Origin: Henriciella pelagia
GTDB taxonomy: Bacteria > Pseudomonadota > Alphaproteobacteria > Caulobacterales > Hyphomonadaceae
Assembly: GCF_002088945.1 (NCBI RefSeq)
Contig: NZ_NCSU01000011.1
Span: 186,001-250,000 of the forward strand
Reading direction: 5' to 3'
DNA: 64,000 nt
Shown here piece by piece: positions 53,958-58,181 of the stretch. Under the pieces are notes generated by a model, which was not told where the DNA came from, did not search any database, and saw only the letters and a list, made by a program, of their open reading frames with translations. The first letter of the stretch is position 1; the number at the start of each line of letters is the position of its first letter. The position numbers and the translations under genes are program-made.

Positions 53958-55358
53958 ATGGCCGATACGCAATACGATTATGATCTCTTTGTCATTGGAG
54001 CCGGCTCGGGCGGGGTGCGCGCAGCCCGGATCGCTGCCCAGGCGGGTGCGAAAGTGGCGATTGCCGAGGAGTACCGTATTGGTGGCACATGCGTGATCCG
54101 CGGCTGCGTGCCGAAGAAATTCATGGTCTATGCGAGCGACTACGGCAAGAAGATCAATGAAGCGGCGCAGTATGGCTGGAAGGTCGAGGAGGCCGGCTTT
54201 GATTTTCCGAGATTCATGTCGAACATGCATGCTGAGGTCGACCGCCTTTCGGCCATCTATATGCGCAATCTCGCCAATGCTGGCGTAGAGGTTTTTGAAG
54301 AGCGTGCCGAATTGGATGGACCGAACAAGGTGTTGCTGAAAGAGACAGGCAAATCCTTCACCGTCGACAAGATCCTGATCGCGACGGGAGGAGAGCCGTG
54401 GCGACCATCGCCTGATGAGCTTCCGGGCGTTGAACACACAATTACCTCGAACGAGATCTTCCAGTTGAAGGCGCTGCCGAAGCGTATCGTGATTGCCGGC
54501 GGCGGTTATATCGCGTGCGAATTTGCGCATGTATTTGCCGGTCTCGGAGTCGAGACCTGTCTCGTCTATCGCGGGGACACTGTCCTCAACGGGTTTGACT
54601 ATGATGTTCGCACAGCCGTGCATGAGGGCCTCAAGGAGGCGGGCGTACGCGTCATCACCAATTGCATCTTCGACCGGATCGATGAGGTTGAAGGCGAAAT
54701 TTGCCCCTATAAGGTGGCGTTGAGCGATGAGACGGAAATCATGGCGGACGTGATCGTCATGGCAGTTGGCCGTCGTCCCTCAACCCGTGGCCTTGGATGT
54801 GACAAGGCGGGGGTCGAACTCGAGCAGAAGGGCGCCGTCATCGTCGATGATGCCTCGCGCACGAGTGTGCCGAACATCTTTGCGGTTGGCGATGTTACTG
54901 ACCGGATTGCGCTGACCCCGGTCGCCATCCGCGAAGGCCATGCCTTTTCTGACAGTCTGTTTGGGGACAATGAGTGGTCCTTTGACCATGACAATGTCGC
55001 CTCGGCCGTATTCGTCCAGCCGGAAGTTGGCACAGTGGGTATGACAGAGGCGCAGGCCCGCAAGGCATTCGGCGACGTGGACATCTACAAGACGCGTTTC
55101 AAGCCGATGAAGGGCGCACTTCTCGAAAAGACAGAGCGTGTCCTCATCAAGCTTGTCGTCAAGCAGGATGACCAGAAAGTGGTCGGCGTTCATATTGTCA
55201 GCCCGGATGCCGGCGAGATGATCCAGATGATCGGCGTTGCCGTGAAGATGGGGGCCACAAAGGCTGATTTTGATCGCACTTGCGCCGTCCATCCGACCAT
55301 CGCCGAGGAGATTGTGACGCTTCGCCAGAAATGGGTGCCGGAAGTCGAACCGGCCTAA
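53958..55358 (+). CDS. gor: Glutathione-disulfide reductase
   Basis: A 466-residue flavoprotein of the pyridine-nucleotide disulfide oxidoreductase family. FAD motif GAGSGGVRAARIAAQ, redox pair in GGTCVIRGCVPKK (C-x4-C), NADPH motif GGGYIACEFAHVFAGLG, and the C-terminal dimer motif with the catalytic His CAVHPTIAEEIVTL. The GSGGVRAAR form separates GR from dihydrolipoamide dehydrogenase and mycothione reductase. It maintains the glutathione made by gshA. Its stop overlaps the TIR-ParA stop by four bases. Confidence 0.94.
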   Translation: MADTQYDYDLFVIGAGSGGVRAARIAAQAGAKVAIAEEYRIGGTCVIRGCVPKKFMVYASDYGKKINEAAQYGWKVEEAGFDFPRFMSNMHAEVDRLSAIYMRNLANAGVEVFEERAELDGPNKVLLKETGKSFTVDKILIATGGEPWRPSPDELPGVEHTITSNEIFQLKALPKRIVIAGGGYIACEFAHVFAGLGVETCLVYRGDTVLNGFDYDVRTAVHEGLKEAGVRVITNCIFDRIDEVEGEICPYKVALSDETEIMADVIVMAVGRRPSTRGLGCDKAGVELEQKGAVIVDDASRTSVPNIFAVGDVTDRIALTPVAIREGHAFSDSLFGDNEWSFDHDNVASAVFVQPEVGTVGMTEAQARKAFGDVDIYKTRFKPMKGALLEKTERVLIKLVVKQDDQKVVGVHIVSPDAGEMIQMIGVAVKMGATKADFDRTCAVHPTIAEEIVTLRQKWVPEVEPA

Positions 55359-56665
55359 GGCGCAGCCACCAGATCATGGATCTCATTCGCTGAGGCCTTC
55401 AGGGCCTCGCGGACGGCTTTCAGGCCACCGCCGCGTCCCTTGTGGATGACCAGGCTTTTCCACGGCGCCTCATCCGGCTCTGGCGCGCGGACCGTGAGAT
55501 GTCCACTTTTTGGCACTGCATGTTGAAGCAGAGCTTCGGACAGCTTGAAGCCTGCCCGCTGGTCGTGCGCGCCATTGCGGGCATCGGCCTCGAAGGATGA
55601 CTGTTCGTTGCGGGCAACCCGGTTGAAGAGAACCGACAGGGCCGGGCGTACGTCCTCTGCAATCTGCTCGTTCAGGACCAGATTGAGCAGCTTTACGCCG
55701 CGCAGGGAATACATGTCCGGATGCATGGGCGCGATGACGCGGTCGCTGGCCTCAAGGGCGCATTTGGTGAGGAAGGTCGCATTGGGGTTGGTATCGAACA
55801 CGATGAGATCATAGGCGCTGCGCAGGTGGTCGATCATGCGCAGGAAATTATCGCGAATGGCCGCAAGCGCAGCGGCGTCCGTCGCGAAGGCGTATTTGGA
55901 TATTTCAAACTGGCCGGAAATCAGGTCCAGGACACCGCCCGGCGCGCCTTCCTCCATGAGCGGATGCGCAATCTCTTCAGGGGCGGGCGCCGGGAAAGGC
56001 TCGACAGAGAGGCTGCTCCACGTTTCGGCGGGAGAGGTAGCATCGCTCGCATGCAGGCGGCTTCTCTCGAACAGTGAAATGACGGACTTGTCGCTGATGG
56101 CGCTGCGGTCGGCCGCTTCCATGTCGAAGAAGGTCTGGGTGAGATTGTACTGGGGGTCGAGGTCGATCAGCAGAACGCGTCCGCCAAGCGTGGCCTGCCA
56201 GGCACCAAAGACCTGTGAGGATATGGTGGTCTTTCCGACGCCGCCTTTGAGGTTCATCACTGAAAGGACCGGGCATTTTCGGCGATATCGGCGGCGCACA
56301 TCACTGACCAGCTTTTCGAGACCGCCTTCGTCCATCAGGCCGGTCGTCAGACTGCTGGCGAGCTCTTTCTTGAAGACACCTGATAGGCGGGCATTGTCGG
56401 TACGAAACGGGAAGATGGTGGTGCCGCGAGCAATGGCGCGCTCGATCTGGCCTTGTGCTTCGCGTGAACGCACGCTGCTTGCTGATACGAGCACAATCAT
56501 GGCGAAGGCCTTGTCGATCGCCTCCGATATGGTGGCGCGACTTTCCTCGGTGTCCGCGCCAGGCGCGTCATACCAGACCGGCACGCCTGCCTGGCGCAGC
56601 GCTTCATGCACTTTCAGAAGGCTGTCGACATCTTTCAGACCGTGGACGATGAAGGCGTGCGACAT
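55355..56665 (-). CDS. TIR-domain/ParA-ATPase fusion protein
   Basis: A 436-residue protein. Residues about 3-105 form a TIR-like domain (HAFIVHGLKDVDSLLKVHEAL, VPVWYDAPG, AMIVLVSASSVRSREAQGQI). By eye the usual catalytic Glu position is Gln73, with Glu75 two residues on, so NADase activity is doubtful. Residues about 130-430 are a complete ParA/MinD-type ATPase: KGGVGKTT at 140-147, VLLIDLDPQYNLTQTF, and YDLIVFDTNPN. The ATG at 56665 (weak GGA seven bases upstream) is preferred to GTG 56722. No parB or parS-like partner is adjacent. It is convergent with gor and divergent from the DAHP synthase gene. Confidence 0.88.
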   Translation of the reverse strand: MSHAFIVHGLKDVDSLLKVHEALRQAGVPVWYDAPGADTEESRATISEAIDKAFAMIVLVSASSVRSREAQGQIERAIARGTTIFPFRTDNARLSGVFKKELASSLTTGLMDEGGLEKLVSDVRRRYRRKCPVLSVMNLKGGVGKTTISSQVFGAWQATLGGRVLLIDLDPQYNLTQTFFDMEAADRSAISDKSVISLFERSRLHASDATSPAETWSSLSVEPFPAPAPEEIAHPLMEEGAPGGVLDLISGQFEISKYAFATDAAALAAIRDNFLRMIDHLRSAYDLIVFDTNPNATFLTKCALEASDRVIAPMHPDMYSLRGVKLLNLVLNEQIAEDVRPALSVLFNRVARNEQSSFEADARNGAHDQRAGFKLSEALLQHAVPKSGHLTVRAPEPDEAPWKSLVIHKGRGGGLKAVREALKASANEIHDLVAAP

Positions 56666-56801: not shown

Positions 56802-58181
56802 ATGACCTGGACACCAAGCAGCTGGAGAGCAAAGCCTGCCAAACATATTCCGGAAGATTATCCGGATGTTGCGGCGCTTGCTGACGTGGAAACCCGCCTG
56901 AAAGCGTTTCCGCCGCTGGTGTTTGCTGGCGAGGTGCGCAAGCTCAAGCAACAATTGGCATCTGTTGCGGCGGGCGATGCCTTCCTGCTGCAGGGCGGCG
57001 ACTGCGCTGAGAGCTTCAAGGAATTCAGTGCCGACAATATTCGCGACACGCTGCGCGTGATGCTGCAGATGGCGGTGGTGCTGACATTCGCGGCGTCCAA
57101 ACCCGTCGTGAAGGTTGGACGCCTCGCGGGCCAGTTCGGGAAGCCGCGCTCGTCTCCGACCGAAACGATTGATGGTGTCACACTGCCATCCTATCGCGGT
57201 GACAATATCAATGGCATGGATTTCACTGAGGAAGCCCGGCTTCCAGACCCGGAGAGGCTGATCAAAAGCTATTCCCAGGCGGCCTCGACGCTGAACCTCG
57301 TTCGCGCCTTTTCGCAGGGTGGCTACGCTGACCTCGCCAACGTGCATCGCTGGATGCTCGGCTTTGTGGACCGCTCACCCCAGGGCGAGCGTTACGAGGC
57401 GCTGGCCGATCGCATTTCGGACGCGCTGTCCTTCATGAATGCATGTGGCGTGAACTCGAAGACGGTGCCGCAGATGGCGCAGGTCGATGTGTACACCTCG
57501 CATGAGGCGTTGCTGCTCGGCTTTGAAGAGGCCATGACGCGCGTCGATTCAACGTCTGGCGACTGGTATGACACCTCGGCGCACATGCTCTGGATCGGTC
57601 ATCGCACGCGCCAGGTCGACCATGCGCATGTCGAGTTCTGCAAGGGCATCCGCAACCCGCTTGGTATCAAGTGCGGACCCGGCATGGAGACAGACGAACT
57701 TGTGCGCCTCATCGAGACGCTCAATCCAAAGGACGAGGCTGGGCGGATCACTCTGATCGCCCGTTTCGGGTCTGAAGGTGTCAAGGAAGGGCTTCCGCCG
57801 CTCGTGCGGGCGGTCAAGAAGAGCGGGCGGAATGTCGTCTGGTCTTGCGATCCGATGCACGGCAACACGCTGAAGACCGATAGCGGCTTCAAGACACGTC
57901 CGGTTGACCGGATCCTGTCCGAAGTGCGTCAGTTCATCGAAATCGTGTCATCGGAAGGTTGTTATCCGGGCGGTGTCCATTTCGAGATGACCGGACAGGA
58001 TGTCACCGAATGTATTGGCGGAGCTCAGGCGATTTCCGAAGCGGACCTGTCGTCTCGATACCACACTCACTGCGATCCTCGTCTGAATGGCGAACAAGCG
58101 CTTGAGTTGGCCTTCCTGATCGCAGAGAAGCTCCAGCACATGAAAGCCGCCGTCAGCGCTGAGACGCGCGCCGCGAGCTAA
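56802..58181 (+). CDS. Class II 3-deoxy-7-phosphoheptulonate synthase
   Basis: A 459-residue plant/actinobacterial-type DAHP synthase, the first step of aromatic amino acid synthesis. Signatures are [15 protein letters not shown] at the start, [38 protein letters not shown] and [10 protein letters not shown]. It condenses phosphoenolpyruvate with erythrose 4-phosphate. GAGGAG precedes the ATG. The MATE transporter gene follows 14 bases downstream. Confidence 0.95.

Follow-up and report, generated by a model that had tools for sequence, protein, structure and literature searches.

What does a TIR domain do when it is fused to an intact ParA-type ATPase? The question is raised by a gene on the minus strand of a 64,000-nucleotide stretch of DNA from the marine-type bacterium Henriciella pelagia (contig NZ_NCSU01000011.1, positions 186,001 to 250,000; hereafter the window). 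The gene, here called TIR-ParA, is real and conserved and not a product of chance, because 66 of 105 genomes of the family Hyphomonadaceae, to which Henriciella belongs, contain it at E < 1e-40, 64 at full length and two as fragments (G016, G022). The reading we prefer, with a probability of roughly 0.5, is that of a nucleoid-type ParA ATPase carrying a non-enzymatic TIR domain as a docking or self-association module. Comparison of relatives suggests an immune-like module turned to other use, in which the ATPase was kept while two things were lost, the enzyme residue of the TIR and the gene for a small partner.

Domain architecture and residue 73

The reading frame runs without internal stop from an ATG at 56665 to a stop codon at 55355-55357. 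An earlier note on this DNA had given the correct coordinates, omitting the strand, and had rightly placed a Walker A motif at residues 140-147 of an intact ParA ATPase. Pfam TIR_2 matches residues 5-92 (E 2.3e-10, 41.5 bits against a cut-off of 28) and AAA_31 matches residues 133-333 (E 4e-25). The features of the gene are as follows.

55355..56665, minus strand: TIR-ParA fusion gene, 436 amino acids (open reading frame, Pfam domains, homologues)
56285..56665, minus strand: TIR domain, residues 1-127
56447..56449, minus strand: codon of Gln73, which aligns with the catalytic glutamate of TIR domains (alignments, tree, locus reads)
55358..56278, minus strand: ParA-type ATPase domain, residues 130-436
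56225..56248, minus strand: deviant Walker A motif KGGVGKTT, residues 140-147; K140, K145 and T146 in 106/106 sequences
56135..56164, minus strand: DLDPQYNLTQ, residues 168-177, which we take to be Walker A' in ParA nomenclature; D168, D170 and Q172 in 106/106
55784..55804, minus strand: Walker B region, residues 288-294; D291 in 106/106

The 106 aligned sequences were chosen for diversity among 187 returned (best 120 of 1641 plus best 120 of 1779), and every one carries the ParA/MinD hallmarks: KGGxGKT with the signature lysine, the second aspartate motif and the Walker B aspartate. AlphaFold2 modeled the whole protein with a mean predicted local distance difference test score (pLDDT) of 94.7 and a predicted template modeling score (pTM) of 0.92. 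A fold search with this model returned ParA-type structures among the rows displayed, and the TIR part was therefore folded separately. It matched TIR structures, which together with the TIR_2 match bears out the TIR fold proposed for the N-terminal part. The nearest structures to the ATPase domain are ParA/Soj proteins, several of them known DNA binders.

Residue 73 is glutamine and residue 75 glutamate, as the earlier note had read them. In profile alignments residue 73 faces a glutamate of BtTir (7uxr) and Cat1 (9mud), presumably their catalytic residue, so that the window protein lacks the glutamate by which TIR NAD+-consuming enzymes (NADases) are recognized. Among the 106 sequences the position holds Q in 46, D in 39, E in 19 and L in 2. 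In 87 of the 90 sequences of the clade to which the window protein belongs (the window clade) Gln, Asp or Leu stands in place of glutamate, which is present in all 16 outside it, among them P0134 and P0135, the outgroup nearest to the clade. On a tree computed with column 73 removed this pattern needs at least four changes. Reading of individual loci gave a similar picture. A single window-clade locus of 25, the basal G082, has the glutamate; in a second family, f174, it is found in 9 of 14 copies linked to a 3-deoxy-D-arabino-heptulosonate 7-phosphate (DAHP) synthase gene, with D, D, H, A and D in the other five; and 6/6 copies without this linkage have it, L058 of the window's family and five of f174 (L063, L064, L065, L067, L078). 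The linked copies are related and their counts are consequently not independent events. KGG(V/I)GKT is intact at 45/45 loci, whose residue 73 varies between Q, D, E, H and A, a constancy beside variation that argues for ATPase rather than NADase activity as the selected feature.

Both domains are under purifying selection. Between the window gene and its nearest relative, L021, the ratio of non-synonymous to synonymous substitution rates (dN/dS) is ~0.04 in the TIR domain, against ~0.03 in the ATPase domain. Against L005, L006 and L007 the TIR value is 0.10-0.14, giving a range of ~0.04 to 0.14 over the four near pairs, and gor, the gene for glutathione-disulfide reductase next to TIR-ParA, stands at ~0.10 in L005 and L007. 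By the dN/dS comparison the TIR is constrained less than the ATPase. This selection, together with the replacement of glutamate in 87 of 90 clade members, indicates that the TIR domain is probably non-enzymatic, in agreement with the earlier suggestion.

A small basic protein encoded downstream in relatives

A six-frame search located a gene for a small basic protein directly downstream of TIR-ParA in 19 of the 20 loci outside the window clade (19 in f174 plus L058 from genus g3 of the window's family, f1), the arrangement of McdAB-like systems. Eighteen of the 19 f174 loci have this partner, and at most ~35 bp separate the profile matches of the two genes. Seven of the 19 partner matches are independent because twelve built the profile; these twelve are 130-142 amino acids long with isoelectric points of 9.6 to 10.5. 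At L069 an open reading frame of only 79 amino acids occupies the place of the partner. All window-clade loci, G082 included, were without a match in the same search (0/25). At E up to 1 the partner profile finds nothing in the window's genome, and nothing in 12 genomes with a window-clade gene except weak matches in G029 (E 0.25 and 0.99). The earlier statement that the ATPase has no companion thus holds for the window clade, where the condition looks derived given the 18 of 19 f174 loci with a partner. Its statement that no parB lies beside the gene also stands: the two ParB_N matches of the genome (E up to 0.001) lie outside the window's contig, C2, on C14 and C12, and the cognate ParB gene adjacent to parA that defines ParABS systems is missing from the window locus.

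The partners reach no Pfam cut-off in 8/8 scanned, give no PADLOC match in 3/3 and no PHROGs match in two of three, the third matching at E 0.008. Querying a large protein set with the L063 partner yielded 51 candidates, all of them with E above 0.001. The N-termini, leucines followed by basic residues, presumably resemble the ATPase-stimulating ends of ParB-type proteins, a likeness only. Four of the five f174 loci without the glutamate keep the partner (L066, L068, L070, L082; not L069), so its retention appears tied to the ATPase and not to NADase activity. Three further observations concern these loci. An open reading frame of 199 amino acids follows the partner in the U9-1i genome (L063 6448-7047), and a separate TIR-like stretch lies ~1.7 kb from the TIR-ParA gene at L067 (2500-2799, minus strand). 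A second partner-like match (G032:C1:1239936-1240292, E 4.5e-6), perhaps another copy, is located ~6 kb from the L058 partner gene.

The mechanism we propose is drawn from the fold and from comparison. ATP binding would produce the ParA sandwich dimer, which would bind DNA non-specifically and pair two TIR domains; the paired TIRs could then capture a client or another TIR, and hydrolysis would free the dimer, leaving the client patterned over the nucleoid. Ancestrally, the gene immediately downstream, abutting TIR-ParA or overlapping it, encodes the small basic protein, which probably acts like ParB or McdB in stimulating the ATPase. The window clade would have lost the partner and then, in most members, the catalytic glutamate, keeping the ATPase and the TIR scaffold. 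Since the basal G082 has the glutamate and no partner, the partner was probably lost first.

Genomic site and distribution

The genes flanking TIR-ParA are those named in the earlier note, both above their NCBIfam cut-offs, and gor overlaps the TIR-ParA stop codon by 4 bp.

53958..55358, plus strand: glutathione-disulfide reductase (gor), convergent neighbor, TIGR01424
56666..56801: intergenic region of 136 bp between the divergent TIR-ParA and DAHP synthase genes
56802..58181, plus strand: class II DAHP synthase, divergent neighbor, TIGR01358

The DAHP synthase gene is the divergent neighbor in 25/25 window-clade loci read, and gor the convergent neighbor in many, not all. In f174 the DAHP synthase gene is found beside TIR-ParA in 14 of 19 loci (16 genomes), with an MgtC/DUF4010 gene in between at L073 and L077; it is not on the stretch read at the five other f174 loci and at L058. 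Nine of the ten window-genus genomes without TIR-ParA have an empty site, gor and DAHP synthase being adjacent with ~105-155 bp between matches, while the tenth, G012 (L121, L148), has other genes at the junction. Mapped on a tree of 85 DAHP synthase rows, the presence pattern needs at least eight changes, which we read as losses; the tree holds 21 of the 30 gene-less loci (L132-L136 and L138-L141 were left out beforehand), represents some genomes twice, and at L123 the junction lies beyond the contig end. An internal TGA is present in G086's copy of the DAHP synthase gene (L137).

In the unrooted TIR-ParA tree a branch that is not firm (92/86) separates the linked copies of both families plus the unlinked L078 from the rest; an earlier tree with longer branches, including TIR-less ParA, gave 54/87. 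A grouping of the linked copies without L078 was rejected (p-AU 0.002). The simplest reading is one ancestral locus for both families, and alternatively there may have been two arrivals beside the same DAHP synthase gene. ParA genes have occupied the junction on more than one occasion, since other lineages have a TIR-less ParA (open reading frames of 283-328 amino acids) with an overlapping or adjacent gene for 122-151 amino acids between gor and DAHP synthase. The pair of G032 and G033 measures 283 and 122 amino acids, and the smaller protein shows no clear relation to the partner (in a small set its best profile E is 0.0013). G077 has a similar pair plus further genes, and L075 holds both ParA kinds. 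The pairs are located at:

L142 3478-4694
L143 5529-6745
L147 2192-3414
L075 6463-7932

By genus, TIR-ParA was found at E < 1e-40 in 19/29 genomes of g1 (the window's genus), 2/3 of g2, 41/42 of g4, 1/1 of g6, 1/7 of g7 and 2/3 of g9, and in none of g3 (0/3), g5 (0/1), g8 (0/1) and g10 (0/15). The gene is dispensable, since 39 of the 105 family genomes are without it. The earlier idea of a core-genome gene therefore survives in part: the site beside housekeeping genes is fixed in 25/25 clade loci, but the gene is not core across the family. A search of the class (385 genomes) gave matches at 1e-20 only in the window's genome and one other family member. In the order 63 of 249 genomes match at 1e-10, nearly all in f1 and f174; f174 accounts for 25 of them, and G488 of that family has no match. 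P0124, recorded as a protein of alpha proteobacterium U9-1i, is from an f174 genome. Across the phylum, the widest group searched by genome (397 genomes, E up to 1e-15, up to four candidates scored per genome) only the window's genome and three family members gave matches from the first residues through the ATPase; of 26 loci among the other hits read as open reading frames, 21 gave the hit and none had TIR plus ATPase. With P0124 as query, none of 235 plasmid records with a match covers 80% of it, and four phage records contain no place that does. In viral contigs, searched with patterns drawn from the ATPase, the 80 kept loci among the matches listed align from residue 114 on only. P0140, a relative filed in a eukaryote protein set, falls inside the Hyphomonadaceae clade and is probably bacterial contamination.

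Alternative functions and nearest known systems

Several observations weigh against a positioning ATPase with a dead TIR. Glutamate persists in 3 of 90 clade members (P0157, P0185, P0190), odd for a dead enzyme, and Asp, at residue 73 in 39 of 106 sequences, may or may not end activity. In the wider pairs (L016, L012) the TIR dN/dS is ~0.33-0.35 against 0.17-0.19 for the ATPase, with dS near saturation. The window's genome offers no known client or partner, and the gene is absent from 39 of the 105 family genomes, 10 of them among the 29 of the window's genus. Finally, DNA-binding residues are not mapped in TIR-ParA; such residues are often poorly conserved (PMC7229837).

An unlikely alternative is an NADase effector, in which ATP-driven ParA assembly would join TIRs and NAD+ would be consumed on a trigger, phage infection for example, with weak activity retained in the window copy through another residue. 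TIR assembly activates known TIR NADases, the glutamate is found in all six copies away from the DAHP synthase gene and in 9 of 14 linked f174 copies, and PADLOC TIR-effector models match the TIR part in four of five relatives (P0124, P0122, L064, L067; L077 none). The window protein, however, has no full-length PADLOC match, its best (E 1.3e-4) covering residues 5-68 of the TIR part alone; it has Gln73, 87 of 90 clade members lack glutamate, and the fixed housekeeping site and the retention of the partner in 4/5 f174 loci without glutamate likewise speak against an effector. The gene could instead encode a FleN/FleQ-like local regulator whose ParA binds a transcription factor or DNA and tunes the divergent DAHP synthase gene. 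We consider this quite unlikely, since several f174 genomes have an intervening gene (the MgtC/DUF4010 protein in L073 and L077), gor and DAHP synthase stay adjacent in genomes without the fusion, and order kept in slow-changing regions requires no functional link.

A membrane-positioned MinD-like protein, with the TIR marking poles or the stalk, seems improbable. Least probable in our view is a ParA once used in plasmid or chromosome partition, which gained a TIR and is now drifting: the partner is missing from 25/25 clade loci and the gene from several lineages, but both domains are under purifying selection, the motifs are intact in 106/106 sequences and the plasmid records yield no match over 80% of P0124. 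Returning to the positioning ATPase, we tentatively suggest that TIR-ParA and its partner form an undescribed class of ParA positioning system with the TIR as cargo or self-assembly module, catalytically dead and partner-independent in Hyphomonadaceae. The main known roles of TIRs are those of NADase and of adaptor in immunity, while ParA ATPases are known for moving DNA and organelles; if the suggestion is true, an immune-type domain would have been domesticated into cell organization. With the natural series (glutamate and partner, partner without glutamate, glutamate without partner, neither) one could ask what role a TIR takes on after enzyme loss and whether nucleoid patterning controls TIR assembly.

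Titles and abstract openings of open-licence papers contained no description of a TIR-ParA fusion, and the portion of PMC7159879 available describes conflict systems with TIR and inactive MinD/ParA-like domains and not this fusion. We file TIR-ParA among the ParA-family ATPases, its TIR domain lacking the NADase glutamate. With bacterial TIR NADases the window protein has the TIR fold in common (ThsB 15.2, SPARTA TIR 15.9, AbTir 13.9); it differs from AbTir, BtTir, ThsB and SPARTA by glutamine at the catalytic position and by the fused ParA. FleN controls flagellar genes and acts on FleQ. FleN/FlhG shares the MinD/ParA fold but has no TIR, and no flagellar gene link is seen for TIR-ParA. Unlike ParA/Soj and pNOB8 ParA, the window protein has an N-terminal TIR, no ParB on its own contig and no adjacent partner. 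Small-partner ParA systems of the McdAB type combine a ParA ATPase with one small downstream gene, as family f174 does, whereas here the TIR is fused to the ATPase.
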